Shown one piece after another: positions 49,851-54,501 of a stretch of 64,000 nucleotides of DNA. Each line of letters opens with the position of its first letter. Position 1 is the stretch's first letter. The notes under the pieces are model-generated. The model did no database searches. It was not told the origin of the DNA and saw nothing but the letters and a program-made list of their open reading frames with translations. The stretch is from Pseudomonas hydrolytica (GTDB lineage Bacteria > Pseudomonadota > Gammaproteobacteria > Pseudomonadales > Pseudomonadaceae), in NCBI RefSeq assembly GCF_021495345.1, contig NZ_CP099397.1:1736001-1800000 (forward strand). Direction: 5' to 3'. A program made the translations under genes and the position numbers.

Positions 49851-50177
49851 TCAGGCTTCTTCGGCGGCCATTTCCACATCGTGGGCAATCAGAGCAACCA
49901 GGGCGTTCTGCTGGCGGCGCGACAGCTGACGAAAACGCTGCAGCAACTCACGCTCATGGAGGCTCAGTTCGGGGCTGTCAAGGCGCAGACTGAGATCGTC
50001 ATCCAGAGCGCCTTCCTGAAGCATGCTCTGCTCCAGGCGGGCGATGATTTCCGAATTCATGCTGCGGTGATGGTTGCGTGCTACGTCAGCGATACGCTCA
50101 CGCATGCCATCGGGCAAGCGAACGACGAATTTGTCAGCCGTGCGGCTGGAATAGGTAGCCTGTTTCATAGGGCGCAT
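49851..50177 (-). CDS. amrZ: Ribbon-helix-helix regulator AmrZ
   Basis: The 108-residue Arc/MetJ-type DNA-binding protein has a flexible N-terminus, the RHH core ([20 protein letters not shown], then [15 protein letters not shown]) and the conserved C-terminal tetramerisation region ([18 protein letters not shown]). It closely resembles P. aeruginosa AmrZ (AlgZ), which controls alginate, motility and c-di-GMP genes and represses itself. Start ATG at 50177 gives MRPMKQ, matching the known N-terminus. It is divergent from phnC, as in P. aeruginosa. Confidence 0.94.
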
Positions 50178-50182
50178 ACATT

Positions 50183-50268
50183 ACCGGTTAGTTCAGGGAG
50201 CGATACTGGTAGTCAGTGTCAAGATTGTCACCGGTTTGACAACCTTATTCACTAGCCGTTCAACCGGT
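50183..50268 (-). promoter_or_regulatory. amrZ upstream region with repeated ACCGGT motifs
   Basis: ACCGGT occurs at 50183-50188, 50230-50235 and 50263-50268, each within a longer partly shared context (ACCGGTT-A/T-G, the last inverted). The middle one lies inside TTGTCA-N6-TGACAA. The copies fall about 6, 53 and 86 bp before the amrZ start, fitting an autoregulatory region. Confidence 0.4.
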
Positions 50269-50430
50269 ATCGCGTTCTGCGTCGTTATGACCTGAGGGTC
50301 ATCTGAACAGTTCCTTGACGCCAATTACGTGTCGCATTGTGAGCGAGGTGGAGGCTTAATGCCAGCACCGACTGTCAGAAATGCGCATCAATCGGCAGAA
50401 GAGCTGCGCAAGCTGTGCTCAGGCATAAAA

Positions 50431-50481
50431 GATTCAAACGCCCGTCACTCAAACGTCACCTCCGCTTCACGGGGCTGACAC
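50431..50481 (+). promoter_or_regulatory. PhoB (Pho box) repeat array upstream of phnC
   Basis: Seven-base units recur every 11 bp: GATTCAA (50431), CCGTCAC (50442), ACGTCAC (50453), GCTTCAC (50464), CTGACAC (50475). The Pho box consensus is CTGTCAT-N4-CTGTCAT. The middle four units make two adjoining Pho boxes. TACCTT at 50492-50497 is a possible -10 box at the usual distance. Confidence 0.72.
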
Positions 50482-50496
50482 AGGTTCTGCCTACCT

Positions 50497-50508
50497 TGGT
50501 CTACACCA
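50497..50508. promoter_or_regulatory. Candidate PhnF operator upstream of phnC
   Basis: TGGTCTACACCA fits the GntR/HutC pattern GT-N-TA-N-AC and resembles the mycobacterial PhnF operator TGGTATAGACCA (recalled from literature). It lies just after the Pho box array, over the expected transcription start, 55 bp before phnC. Confidence 0.5.
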
Positions 50509-50562
50509 GATGGCGGCCAAGGCGCTGCCTTCTTATCGCCAATGATAGTAGAGGGCCAGCCC

Positions 50563-51387
50563 ATGAGCGCAGTGATTCGAGTCGACCGTCTGAACAAGAC
50601 CTTCGGGCGTAAACAGGCGCTGTTCGATCTGGCCCTGTCGGTACAGCCGGGCGAGATGGTAGCGCTGATCGGCGCCTCTGGCTCGGGCAAATCGACCCTG
50701 CTGCGACATCTGGCCGGCCTGGCACGCGGTGATGGCGGCAGTATCGAGGTACTCGGTCGTCAGGTACAGGCCGAAGGACGCCTCAATGGCGAGGTGCGTC
50801 GCCTGCGCGCCGATATCGGCTACATCTTCCAGCAGTTCAATCTGGTCGGCCGCCTCAGCGTGCTGCAGAACGTGCTGCTCGGCGGCCTGGGCCGCATGCC
50901 GCGCTGGCGCGGCAGCCTCAGCCTGTTCAATGCCGAGGAAAAACAGCGCGCCATGGCGGCGCTGGAGCGCGTCGGTCTGGCCGAGTTCGCTGCCCAGCGC
51001 GCTTCCACTCTGTCCGGCGGCCAGCAACAGCGCGTGGCCATCGCCCGCGCGCTGTGCCAGCAGGCCGAGGTGATTCTCGCCGACGAACCTATCGCCTCGC
51101 TCGACCCGGAGTCGGCACGCAAGGTGATGGAAATTCTCGCCGACATCAACCGTCGCGATGGCAAGACGGTGGTGGTGACCCTGCATCAGGTCGACTACGC
51201 GGTGCGCTATTGCCAGCGCGCCGTGGCGCTAAAGGGCGGGCGCATTCATTTCGACGGCCCCACCGACAGCTTCAACCCCGATTTCCTCAACGACCTCTAC
51301 GGCGGTGATCTCGATATCAGCCTGCTGCTGCCGCAAGGGCAGCGCCCACGTGCCGTGGAGCGTCCACTGACGCTGGCCAAGGCCTGA
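50563..51387 (+). CDS. phnC: Phosphonate ABC transporter ATP-binding protein
   Basis: The 274-residue ABC ATPase has Walker [10 protein letters not shown], signature [14 protein letters not shown], Walker B VILADEP and the switch His in VTLHQVD. It drives phosphonate import with PhnD and PhnE. ATG at 50563 ([10 protein letters not shown]) has GAGGG upstream; an in-frame ATG at 50542 adds 7 residues. It is first in phnCDEFGHIJKLMNP. Confidence 0.95.
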
Positions 51388-51440
51388 CGTCGCCTTCCTC
51401 ATTCGAACCATAACGCCAACCCGCAACAGGAGTGTGCTCC

Positions 51441-52442
51441 ATGTTCAAACGCATCGGCCAGGTGCTGGCTGCCTCTGCGCTCGTCACCGGTTCCCTGCTG
51501 GGCTCGGTCCAGGCCGCCGAGGAACTCAATTTCGGCATCATCTCCACCGAGTCCTCGCAGAACCTCAAGGCCATGTGGGATCCCTTCCTGGCCGACATGA
51601 GCAAGCAGACCGGAGTGAAGATCAACGCCTTCTTCGCGCCTGACTATGCCGGGATCATCCAGGGCATGCGCTTCGACAAGGTCGACGTAGCCTGGTACGG
51701 CAACAAGTCGGCGATGGAAGCGGTGGACCGTGCCGGTGGCGAGATCTTCGCCCAGACCGTGGCGGCCAACGGCGCGCAGGGCTACTACAGCCTGCTGGTG
51801 GCGCACAAGGACAGCCCGATCGACTCGGTCGAGGACATGCTCAAGAACGCCAAGAGCCTGACCTTCGCCAACGGCGACCCGAACTCCACCTCCGGATACC
51901 TGGTGCCCGGTTATTACGTGTTCGCCCAGAACAACGTCGACTCCGGCAAGATCTTCAAGCGCTCGCTCAACGGCAGTCACGAGGTCAATGCACTGTCGGT
52001 GGCCAATAAGCAGGTCGATGTCGGCACCTTCAACAGCGAGGGCATGGAGCGCCTGGAAGTGACCGCGCCGGACAAGGCCGCGCAGCTCAAGGTGATCTGG
52101 ACCTCACCGCTGATCCCCTCCGATCCCATCGTCTGGCGCAAGAACCTGCCGCAAGAAACCCGCGACAAGCTGCGCGACTTCTTCATGACCTATGGCGCCA
52201 AGCCGGAAGAGAAGAAAGTGCTCGAGGGCCTGCAGTGGGGCCAGTTCAAGGCTTCCGACAACGACCAGCTGCTGCCGATTCGTCAGCTCGAGCTGTTCAA
52301 GAAGCGCACCGAAGTGGCCAACAACGACAAGCTCAAGGACGCCGACAAGCAGGCTCAGCTCAAGGAGCTGGACGCCGAGCTGGCCAAGCTGGAGCAGCGT
52401 ATGGCCGAGCGTGAAAAGCAGGGCGGCGCCAGCGCCGGTTGA
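51441..52442 (+). CDS. phnD: Phosphonate ABC transporter substrate-binding protein
   Basis: The 333-residue periplasmic protein has a signal peptide (MFKRIGQVLAASALVTGSLL, cleaved near residue 27) and a PhnD-type fold (LNFGIISTESSQNLKAMWDP, then VDVAWYGNKSAMEAVDRA). It binds phosphonates. The C-terminus is a charged coiled-coil-like stretch (KQAQLKELDAELAKLEQRM). ATG at 51441 has AGGAG upstream; GTG at 51432 is less likely. A strong hairpin follows the gene. Confidence 0.94.
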   Translation: MFKRIGQVLAASALVTGSLLGSVQAAEELNFGIISTESSQNLKAMWDPFLADMSKQTGVKINAFFAPDYAGIIQGMRFDKVDVAWYGNKSAMEAVDRAGGEIFAQTVAANGAQGYYSLLVAHKDSPIDSVEDMLKNAKSLTFANGDPNSTSGYLVPGYYVFAQNNVDSGKIFKRSLNGSHEVNALSVANKQVDVGTFNSEGMERLEVTAPDKAAQLKVIWTSPLIPSDPIVWRKNLPQETRDKLRDFFMTYGAKPEEKKVLEGLQWGQFKASDNDQLLPIRQLELFKKRTEVANNDKLKDADKQAQLKELDAELAKLEQRMAEREKQGGASAG

Positions 52443-52448
52443 TCCTGG

Positions 52449-52476
52449 CAGCCCCTCGGTATCGACCGAGGGGCTG
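52449..52476 (+). other. Intra-operon hairpin between phnD and phnE
   Basis: CAGCCCCTCGGT (52449-52460) pairs perfectly with ACCGAGGGGCTG (52465-52476) around ATCG. CGTTTT follows 10 nt later. It may protect the phnCD message or partly terminate, giving excess binding protein. Confidence 0.65.
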
Positions 52477-52505
52477 ACTGCAGTCGTTTTCCCCGAGATA
52501 CCTTG

Positions 52506-53297
52506 ATGACCACTTTGACCACCCATACCCCGACCGTCGATAGCAAGCGCAGCTGGTTGCAACTGATCGGCTGGGGCCTGTTCTTCGCCGTGCTCGCCTG
52601 GTCCTGGCGGGGTGCGGAAATGAACCCGCTGGCGCTGGTGCGCGATGGCGGCAACATGGCCACCTTCGCCGCCGACTTCTTCCCGCCGGATTTCAGCAAC
52701 TGGCGGCACTACCTCAAGGAAATGGTGGTCACCGTGCAGATCGCCCTGTGGGGCACGGTGCTGGCCATTCTCTGCGCCATTCCGCTGGGCATCCTCTGTT
52801 CCGAGAACATCGTGCCCTGGTGGGTGTACCAGCCGGTACGCCGGGTGATGGATGCCTGCCGTTCGATCAACGAAATGGTCTTCGCCATGCTCTTCGTCGT
52901 CGCGGTCGGCCTCGGCCCCTTCGCTGGCGTGCTGGCGCTGTTCATCAGCACCACCGGGGTGTTGGCCAAGCTGTTCGCCGAGGCGGTCGAGGCCATCGAT
53001 CCGGGCCCGGTCGAAGGCGTGCGCGCCACCGGCGCCAGTGCCCTGCAGGAAGTGATCTTCGGCGTCATCCCGCAGGTGCTGCCGCTGTGGATTTCCTACT
53101 CGCTGTACCGCTTCGAGTCCAACGTGCGCTCGGCCACGGTGGTCGGCATGGTCGGCGCCGGTGGCATCGGGGTGATTCTCTGGGAGGCGATTCGCGGCTT
53201 CCAGTTCGCCCAGACCTGCGCCCTGCTGATCGTGATCATCCTGGTGGTGAGCGCCATCGACATCCTGTCCCAGCGCCTGCGCAAGCTCTTTATCTGA
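52506..53297 (+). CDS. phnE: Phosphonate ABC transporter permease
   Basis: The 263-residue inner-membrane permease has about six hydrophobic segments and the EAA loop ([20 protein letters not shown]). It forms the phosphonate channel. ATG at 52506 was chosen over TTG at 52503. It is followed by phnF after a GGAGGAGGAGGG tract. Confidence 0.93.
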
Positions 53298-53335
53298 AGG
53301 AGGAGGAGGGCGCCTGCGTGCGCCCTTTTCAAACG

Positions 53336-54040
53336 ATGAACTTGTCTAGACAAAGCGAACCGCTGTACCGCGAGCTGGCCGCCGTGCTGCGCGAAGACGT
53401 GCAGCGCATGAGCCCTGGCGACTACCTGCCGGGCGAGATGCAACTGGCCGCGCGCTTTTCCGTCAACCGCCACACCCTGCGCCGTGCGGTGGACGAGCTG
53501 GTGCTCGAAGGCCGCCTGCTGCGCCGCCAGGGCAAGGGCACCCAGGTGCTGGCCAAGCCACTGGTGTACCCGGTGGAGGCGGGCAGTGCCTTCAGCCAGT
53601 CGCTGTCGGCGCTCGGCCACCGGGTTGAAGCGAAACTGATCGAGCGCCTGCGCCGCACTGGCAGCAGTGAGGAATGCCGCCACCTGCAACTGCCCGACGG
53701 CAGCGAGCTGATCGAGCTGACCACCCTGCGCCTGCTCGAGGGCCAGCCGCTGAGCCTGATCCGTCACCGTTTCTGCGCCAGCCTGGCGCCACTGTTGGCC
53801 GACTACCAGGGCGGTTCGCTGCGCCAGTACCTGGCCGAGCGCGACCTGCCGCTGGCGCGCACTTTCAGCCTGATTGGTGCGCGTTTGCCCAGCCGCGAAG
53901 AAGCCGCGCACCTGCTGATGCCGCGCCATGCGCCGCTGCTCAGCGTACTCACATTATCCCGCGATCCCGCTGGCCGGGCGGTGGAGCTGGCGCAGTCCAG
54001 CAGCCGCGCCGACCGCTTCCAGTACCAGGTAGCGACCTGA
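53336..54040 (+). CDS. phnF: Phosphonate metabolism GntR/HutC-family regulator PhnF
   Basis: The 234-residue regulator has an N-terminal winged helix (YRELAAVLREDVQRMSPGDY, then ARFSVNRHTLRRAVDELVLE) and a C-terminal UTRA ligand domain, as in E. coli PhnF. The ATG at 53336 (MNLSRQSEP) matches E. coli PhnF, but the strong ribosome site GGAGGAGGAGGG at 53299-53310 is better placed for GTG at 53318, which would add six residues. A palindrome, TTGTCTAGACAA, covers codons 3-6, suggesting autoregulation. Confidence 0.92.
   Translation: MNLSRQSEPLYRELAAVLREDVQRMSPGDYLPGEMQLAARFSVNRHTLRRAVDELVLEGRLLRRQGKGTQVLAKPLVYPVEAGSAFSQSLSALGHRVEAKLIERLRRTGSSEECRHLQLPDGSELIELTTLRLLEGQPLSLIRHRFCASLAPLLADYQGGSLRQYLAERDLPLARTFSLIGARLPSREEAAHLLMPRHAPLLSVLTLSRDPAGRAVELAQSSSRADRFQYQVAT
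53342..53353. promoter_or_regulatory. Candidate PhnF operator inside the phnF start region
   Basis: TTGTCTAGACAA is a perfect 12-bp palindrome fitting GT-N-TA-N-AC. It lies 4 nt after the phnF ATG and shares GTCTA with the site before phnC. Confidence 0.5.
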
Positions 54041-54051
54041 TGGAGACCCGC

Positions 54052-54501
54052 ATGAACGAAACCGACCCGAACATCGCCGCGCGGCAGCGCTGGATGGGCG
54101 TGCTGGCCCGTGCCGGCAGCGCCCTCGACGCCCATGAGGCGGCGCTGAAAGACAGCGCCTACCAGCTGATCCGCGCCCCGGAGGTGGGCATGACCCTGGT
54201 GCGCGGACGCATGGGCGGCACCGGCAGTGCCTTCAACCTGGGCGAGATGACCGTGACCCGCTGCGTGGTGCGCCTGGCCGACGGCCGCACCGGCTACAGC
54301 TACCTGGCCGGCCGCGACAAGCGCCGCGCCGAGCTGGCCGCCCTGGCCGACGCCCACCTGCAGGGCAGCGACCAGGCGCGCTGGCTCAGTGACCTGATCG
54401 AACCCATGGCTCGCCAGCAGCGCGAGCAGCGCCTGGCCCGGGCCGCGCGCAGCGCCACCACTCAGGTGGAATTCTTCACCCTGGTCAGAGGAGAGGATTG
54501 A
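54052..54501 (+). CDS. phnG: Phosphonate C-P lyase system protein PhnG
   Basis: The 149-residue protein is PhnG (RQRWMGVLARAGSALDAHEA, FNLGEMTVTRCVVRL, GYSYLAGRDKRRAELAAL), part of the PhnGHIJ core that converts phosphonate and ATP to ribosyl triphosphate phosphonate. ATG at 54052 has GGAG 6 nt upstream; ATG at 54040 overlaps the phnF stop and is an alternative. The stop overlaps the phnH start. Confidence 0.94.
   Translation: MNETDPNIAARQRWMGVLARAGSALDAHEAALKDSAYQLIRAPEVGMTLVRGRMGGTGSAFNLGEMTVTRCVVRLADGRTGYSYLAGRDKRRAELAALADAHLQGSDQARWLSDLIEPMARQQREQRLARAARSATTQVEFFTLVRGED

Follow-up and report, generated by a model that had tools for sequence, protein, structure and literature searches.

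A known system close to the locus studied here is the Escherichia coli operon phnCDEFGHIJKLMNOP, which has the same gene order. PhoB activates transcription from direct heptamer repeats spaced 11 bp apart, GntR/HutC proteins repress by covering promoters, and HutC-type GntR proteins bind GT-N-TA-N-AC. The E. coli operon is under Pho-box control before phnC, as is predicted here, and the role that the same review gives to PhnF in E. coli rests on work in Mycobacterium (PMC10574752). In Mycobacterium smegmatis, the GntR/HutC regulator PhnF is reported to repress transport genes via two sites in a bidirectional promoter; the locus described there is phnF-phnDCE only, with a divergent phnF and both sites in the promoter region, whereas phnF lies mid-operon here (PMC7866108). 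A PhnF regulon from RegPrecise has been carried over to P. stutzeri RCH2 (PMC5299692), and a Pseudomonas syringae study names PhnF together with three co-bound genes (PMC11957545). Two-input control of phn genes is thus not new in kind, with PhoB, PhnF repression in Mycobacterium, and the RegPrecise PhnF regulon as precedents, and the action of PhnF in C-P lyase operons has been little tested. BguR of Streptococcus pneumoniae is a GntR repressor with the site AAAAATGTCTAGACAAATTT, reported as tested by promoter truncation; it controls a cellobiose operon, and its site overlaps the −35 element, unlike the phn sites considered here (PMC3585215). The dre sites of DasR in Streptomyces coelicolor are HutC-family operators that include TGGTCTACACCA (PMC4398421), the sequence found before phnC in our locus, but DasR governs the GlcNAc regulon.

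The window, i.e., the whole stretch of 64,000 nucleotides that was analyzed (G000:C1:1736001-1800000, within a 5.29-Mb genome), carries the following genes:

49851..50177, minus strand: amrZ, the divergent neighbor (AmrZ match in PDB 3qoq, E 4.1e-29)
50563..51387, plus strand: phnC (TIGR02315, 306.7 bits versus a cutoff of 266.1)
51441..52442, plus strand: phnD (TIGR03431, 328.3 bits versus a cutoff of 261.1)
52503..53297, plus strand: phnE (TIGR01097, 309.7 bits versus a cutoff of 216.7)
53336..54040, plus strand: phnF, encoding a HutC-type GntR regulator (TIGR02325, 164.8 bits versus a cutoff of 156.8)

PhnC, PhnD, PhnE, and PhnF each scored above their NCBIfam cutoffs, and PhnF was the only protein of the genome above the PhnF cutoff (164.1 bits in the genome-wide comparison; next best, 116.9 bits). 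It is not filed under the narrower PRK10079 (NF007486), scoring 154.7 bits against a cutoff of 363. The next-best protein (L124; G000:C1:3797520) is a second HutC-type regulator, below the cutoff as a PhnF; the gene from which it diverges looks by eye like one for an ABC substrate-binding protein. PhoB is also encoded in the genome (TIGR02154, 363.2 bits versus a cutoff of 296.2). The closest named relative by PhnF, among the matches listed, is Pseudomonas toyotomiensis (99%), near-identical records possibly being omitted there. We compared 78 Pseudomonadaceae loci, comprising the window and 77 relatives, every one that gave a match in a set of 298 genomes; these loci share ancestry, and locus counts are not counts of independent events. 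A named-locus set consists of the best 80 matches listed and overlaps the other locus set.

Three elements occupy the region upstream of phnC:

50431..50481, plus strand: five PhoB-type heptamers in 11-bp steps (starting at 50431, 50442, 50453, 50464, and 50475), recognized by consensus scoring and conservation in relatives
50492..50497, plus strand: −10-like TACCTT, 10 nt past the last heptamer (fixed gap; 0.96 identity in clade loci)
50497..50508, plus strand: putative operator TGGTCTACACCA over the −10 end and the presumed start site (GT-N-TA-N-AC palindrome; conserved in relatives)

Scored against the PhoB heptamer consensus CTGTCAC/T, the units GATTCAA, CCGTCAC, ACGTCAC, GCTTCAC, and CTGACAC match at 3, 6, 5, 4, and 6 of 7 positions, respectively. 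With both strands counted, only 1 of 127,890 window positions attained a five-unit sum of 24/35 and only 1 of 127,912 a four-unit sum of 21/28, in each case the array itself. As its first unit matches weakly, the array has four solid units and a probable fifth. When all 78 loci were scanned with gaps of 8 to 12 nt permitted, array and TANNNT were 10 nt apart in each of the 76 loci having a four-unit array plus TANNNT; this combination was not found in L087 and L092. The locus therefore has the 11-bp direct heptamers about 10 nt before a −10 element that mark PhoB-dependent promoters, one of five units being weak, and both spacing and array fit the usual PhoB arrangement. A PhoB-type promoter whose start site is covered by a putative PhnF-type operator is well supported.

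The first base of TGGTCTACACCA is the last base of TACCTT, and the genome of 5.29 Mb holds a single exact copy of the 12-mer, at the phnC promoter. Its 10-bp core, GGTNTANACC, is present in three copies in the window (0.10 expected) and in 51 copies genome-wide (28 for the reversed control), and two-mismatch lookalikes of TGGTCTACACCA are enriched in the window (9 versus 2.0 expected), so that loose matches mean little; GGTNTANACC alone, with its 51 copies, was dropped as an uninformative genome-wide indicator. The upstream neighbor is amrZ in 24 of the 78 loci, and exact TGGTCTACACCA was found in 23 of these 24, window included, the sole exception (L109) having two changes, and in none of the loci of the 78-locus set that lack amrZ upstream. 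The clade alignment of these loci (22 distinct) was anchored on the operator and its members were chosen by operator plus L109, and the mean column identity of 0.99 at the operator is thus partly built in; identity was 0.96 at the −10 element and 0.98 in the last heptamer, compared with 0.45 in the upstream and 0.63 in the downstream flank. The amrZ-linked set, picked independently of the operator, proves to be the same 24 loci. The operator start lies at −56 to −67 relative to the phnC ATG, but its register to the −10 element is constant, which ties the operator to the promoter.

The abundance of GGTNTANACC in the genome and of two-mismatch lookalikes in the window is what speaks for a chance origin of array and palindrome. 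We give that origin virtually no credence, as it is contradicted by the array score, the genome-unique 12-mer, and the conservation in amrZ-linked loci, where the palindrome persists in 23 of 24 between flanks of 0.45 to 0.63 identity and at constant spacing to the −10 element.

A preliminary description of this DNA had named heptamers every 11 bp across 50431-50481, ending in CTGACAC (6 of 7), which here gave the top score in the window, as well as a possible −10 box after the array, which corresponds to TACCTT with its recurrent 10-nt gap, and a GT-N-TA-N-AC palindrome at 50497-50508, which proved exact in nearly all amrZ-linked loci. The comparison of amrZ-phnC regions that it had called for came out mixed, with the palindrome kept in 22 of 23 amrZ-linked relatives and in four of five named amrZ-linked loci, but the fifth, L222, has lost it. 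It had also staked its reading on the palindrome being kept by close relatives that retain phnF, and this holds for most amrZ-linked loci but not for the 24 of 78 loci without a strict phnC site. Its reading is largely sensible, and its two-input gate, with activation through PhoB and blocking by PhnF, is plausible.

Across the 78 loci, a strict phnC site is present in 54, in five forms: TGGTCTACACCA in 23, TCGTCTAGACAA in 20, CTGTTTAGACAA in 7, TTGTATAGACAA in 3, and TGGTCTAGACAA in 1. Near matches to the phnC operator occur in two of the loci without a strict site (L071 and L109). Position varies along with sequence: TCGTCTAGACAA, found in genus g15 (20 loci; Stutzerimonas, judging by named counterparts), sits two bases beyond the TGGTCTACACCA position; CTGTTTAGACAA begins 66 bp before the −10 end and overlaps the first scored heptamer by two bases; and TTGTATAGACAA lies inside phnC. 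The second base of the phnC sites may be G, C, or T. Together, the loci without a strict site and the several forms in the others argue against a universal phnC gate by PhnF. The regulatory site has been rebuilt repeatedly around a constant PhoB promoter. A PhoB heptamer is overlapped by a PhnF-type site in L060, L064, L067, L074, L077, L078, and L122, which suggests direct competition with PhoB in that lineage. Loci L070 and L079, and L075 with a variant, have no strict PhnF-type site at phnC and carry another inverted repeat, CGTTTGAACTCAAACG, just past the −10 element and about 55 bp before phnC, possibly the site of another regulator.

The single gate of the preliminary description is also incomplete, as it overlooked a more conserved PhnF-type site within phnF:

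53342..53353, plus strand: second putative operator, TTGTCTAGACAA, at phnF codons 3 to 6 (conservation and codon-column analysis)

This sequence is likewise a GT-N-TA-N-AC palindrome; neither a second exact copy nor a one-mismatch copy was found elsewhere in the genome. All 78 Pseudomonadaceae loci have the core GTCTAGAC at the same place in phnF, a count that for L093 depends on a phnF start located by a string containing the palindrome. The forms are TTGTCTAGACAA in 58 loci, an ATG-first form in 10, a CTG-first form in 7, and a form with an altered last codon in 3. Within the 660,581 bases of the 78 loci, there are 21 other copies of GTCTAGAC, all at most 80 bp before phnC. By these sequence counts, the putative site inside phnF, not that at phnC, is the most conserved PhnF-type site, and it is located between the transport and lyase genes. 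With it, the model shifts from one gate to two. The literature searched, whose reach excluded most subscription papers, yielded no account of an operator inside phnF. In L093, an inner deletion and a changed end disrupt phnF, and both operators are kept.

Of 106 degenerate phnF columns with a conserved residue, synonymous change is absent only from the three at codons 4 to 6 (TCT AGA CAA; 76 phnF genes aligned, L092 and L093 left out), and the same three columns were invariant in a 70-locus repeat with eight loci omitted. Single-codon columns also occur in phnC (4/175), phnD (3/164), and phnE (3/174), but a three-column run with zero variation is found only at phnF codons 4 to 6, the lowest value in phnC, phnD, and phnE being 0.09. 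AGA accounts for 0.18% of the 3865 Arg codons of phnCDE; elsewhere in phnF, its share is 0.42% of 2156. A run of zero variation containing such a rare codon, within a palindrome, points to selection on the DNA. The arrangement, the conservation, and DNA-level selection are what the analysis shows. It is very improbable that these codons are kept for the protein (LSRQ) or for slow-codon reasons without an operator. Ser-Arg is indeed invariant in 78 of 78 PhnF proteins, and rare codons near starts can influence translation; however, codon 6 is CGA or CAT in three loci that keep the core GTCTAGAC nonetheless, the three single-codon columns all fall within the palindrome, and a near-identical palindrome stands outside the coding frame in what we call leader-type phnF genes. 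A codon-only or protein-only account was rejected on these codon columns and leader-type palindromes.

Conservation of the palindrome beside its regulator extends beyond the family. In 74 phnF loci from 25 other families, a ranking by family of the 1024 palindromic 10-mers near phnF put TGTCTAGACA first when up to two mismatches were allowed (32/74 loci) and second when one was allowed (10/74); no match within two mismatches was found near phnF in 42 of these 74 loci. Alcaligenaceae carry TGTCTAGACA exactly at the phnF coding start in six of six loci, at 44 to 53% protein identity. Among the best 80 named loci listed, 46 have an exact match near the phnF start, 14 a match with one mismatch, 17 with two, and 3 with three, and for L292 the best match lies at a distance of 131 bp. 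Leader-type phnF genes have copies with one or two mismatches upstream of the gene; in L275, L276, L279, L281, and L283, a one-mismatch copy precedes the aligned start by 22 to 31 bp. Most enterobacterial loci have TTATCCAGACAT, TTGTCCAGACAT, or TTGTCTACACAT in the same phnF codons, degenerate versions with one to two mismatches, unlike those of Pseudomonadaceae. In E. coli K-12, phnF codons 3 to 6 read TTGTCTACACAT, which is also GT-N-TA-N-AC, like the site in the window, whereas no GT-N-TA-N-AC was found in its phnC leader. Controls with phnJ but no phnF came down to two, an operon in G225 that is truncated and a second, distant lyase operon in G140 (L180), so that the intact phnF-less control is one operon, and L180 had no GT-N-TA-N-AC in 13 kb. 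L179 and L180 thus represent, respectively, a relative with a truncated lyase operon only and another with a second, distant lyase operon lacking phnF.

The two operators differ in that TGGTCTACACCA has GG and ACA and TTGTCTAGACAA has TG and AGA. DasR and NagR are described as contacting the second guanine through an extra Arg (PMC4918961). In our alignment to NagR, the places of its Arg38 and Arg48 are taken by Met35 and Arg45 in PhnF, and across the family all 78 PhnF proteins have Arg at the Arg48 place and none has it at the Arg38 place. This pattern suggests recognition of one guanine per half-site, which is what TTGTCTAGACAA offers, and the GG of the phnC site would then not be required. 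The GG is thus unexpected for a PhnF without the Arg38 equivalent, and TGGTCTACACCA at phnC might be read by another HutC-type regulator instead: it resembles the DasR consensus TGGTCTAGACCA, the exact 12-mer is given as a DasR site before nagE1 and dasA (PMC4398421), and the paralogue G000:C1:3797520 (116.9 bits) by eye has Arg at the Arg38 place. We regard this as unlikely, given that TGGTCTACACCA is genome-unique and within the phn operon, that genus g15 has at the same promoter, two bases on, TCGTCTAGACAA, which matches the phnF site, and that the second base varies among G, C, and T at phnC sites.

Taking both sites together, we consider it likely that a PhoB-started phnCDEFG... operon is controlled by PhnF at two operators of the same type. 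The PhoB-activated promoter would start the operon, with the heptamer array standing in for a −35 element, and the transcript would begin at the operator. PhnF, encoded mid-operon, would act at TGGTCTACACCA and TTGTCTAGACAA: bound to TGGTCTACACCA (50497-50508), over the −10 end and start site, it would block initiation, and bound to TTGTCTAGACAA (53342-53353), it would block or end transcription ahead of the lyase genes and also set the level of PhnF itself. Starvation would provide PhoB~P, and a phosphonate-derived ligand would presumably release PhnF. Binding of PhnF at both sites and its release by a ligand are predictions, and the inner site may work as a road-block, control an inner promoter, or do both.

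If it were only the latter, the phnF-internal site would serve an inner phnF promoter, as in classical autorepression, and have no effect on read-through from phnC. We consider this narrower role possible but less likely than not. A near copy of the palindrome precedes the gene in leader-type phnF, and the windows of lowest synonymous variation in phnE lie near its 3′ end (0.28 versus a mean of 0.47), but comparable lows occur in phnC (0.30), phnD (0.24), and phnF (0.30). The site occupies the place of codons 3 to 6 in family loci, mostly downstream of the ATG, and by eye there is no conserved −10 element ahead of that ATG. No sigma-70-like promoter was found in 50300-54200, which is weak evidence because the same scan also misses the PhoB-type promoter. 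Under the two-operator model, the phnF-internal operator could explain how phosphonate uptake and C-P cleavage are set separately within one transcript; phosphonate uptake can reportedly bring in phosphate too (PMC6469041). A further reading, which we put forward tentatively and think somewhat doubtful, is that in mid-operon systems the ancestral and essential target of PhnF lies within its own gene, as a ligand-controlled barrier to transcription between the transporter and the lyase genes, and that the phnC operator is a lineage-specific addition made at no fewer than four positions, in one lineage overlapping the PhoB array.

The junction between phnE and phnF has one more candidate element:

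53303..53330, plus strand: hairpin ahead of the phnF ATG, following a Shine-Dalgarno-like GGAGG at the end of phnE (−19.5 kcal/mol, z −2.38)

The position of this hairpin is kept in relatives while its sequence changes: 32 of 64 distinct leaders have a Watson-Crick stem of at least 5 bp at the junction (shuffles, mean of 2.4 and largest value of 6), with several stem sequences. A GGAG-like word stands 4 to 16 nt before the phnF ATG in only 3 of 64 leaders and farther upstream in 56 of 64. A split ribosome site is one possible role of the junction (53295-53336), an attenuator another. A terminator scan of 50300-54200 did not call the hairpin, so we do not claim a terminator, and an Rfam search of 50200-54200 gave no match. 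In the amrZ-linked locus L222 (Pseudomonas dryadis), the phnC operator is lost, by eye together with the PhoB array and the −10 element, and the phnF site is kept. The phnC leader of the window also contains a hairpin, at 50512-50529 right after the operator, and relatives have stems that look similar by eye.
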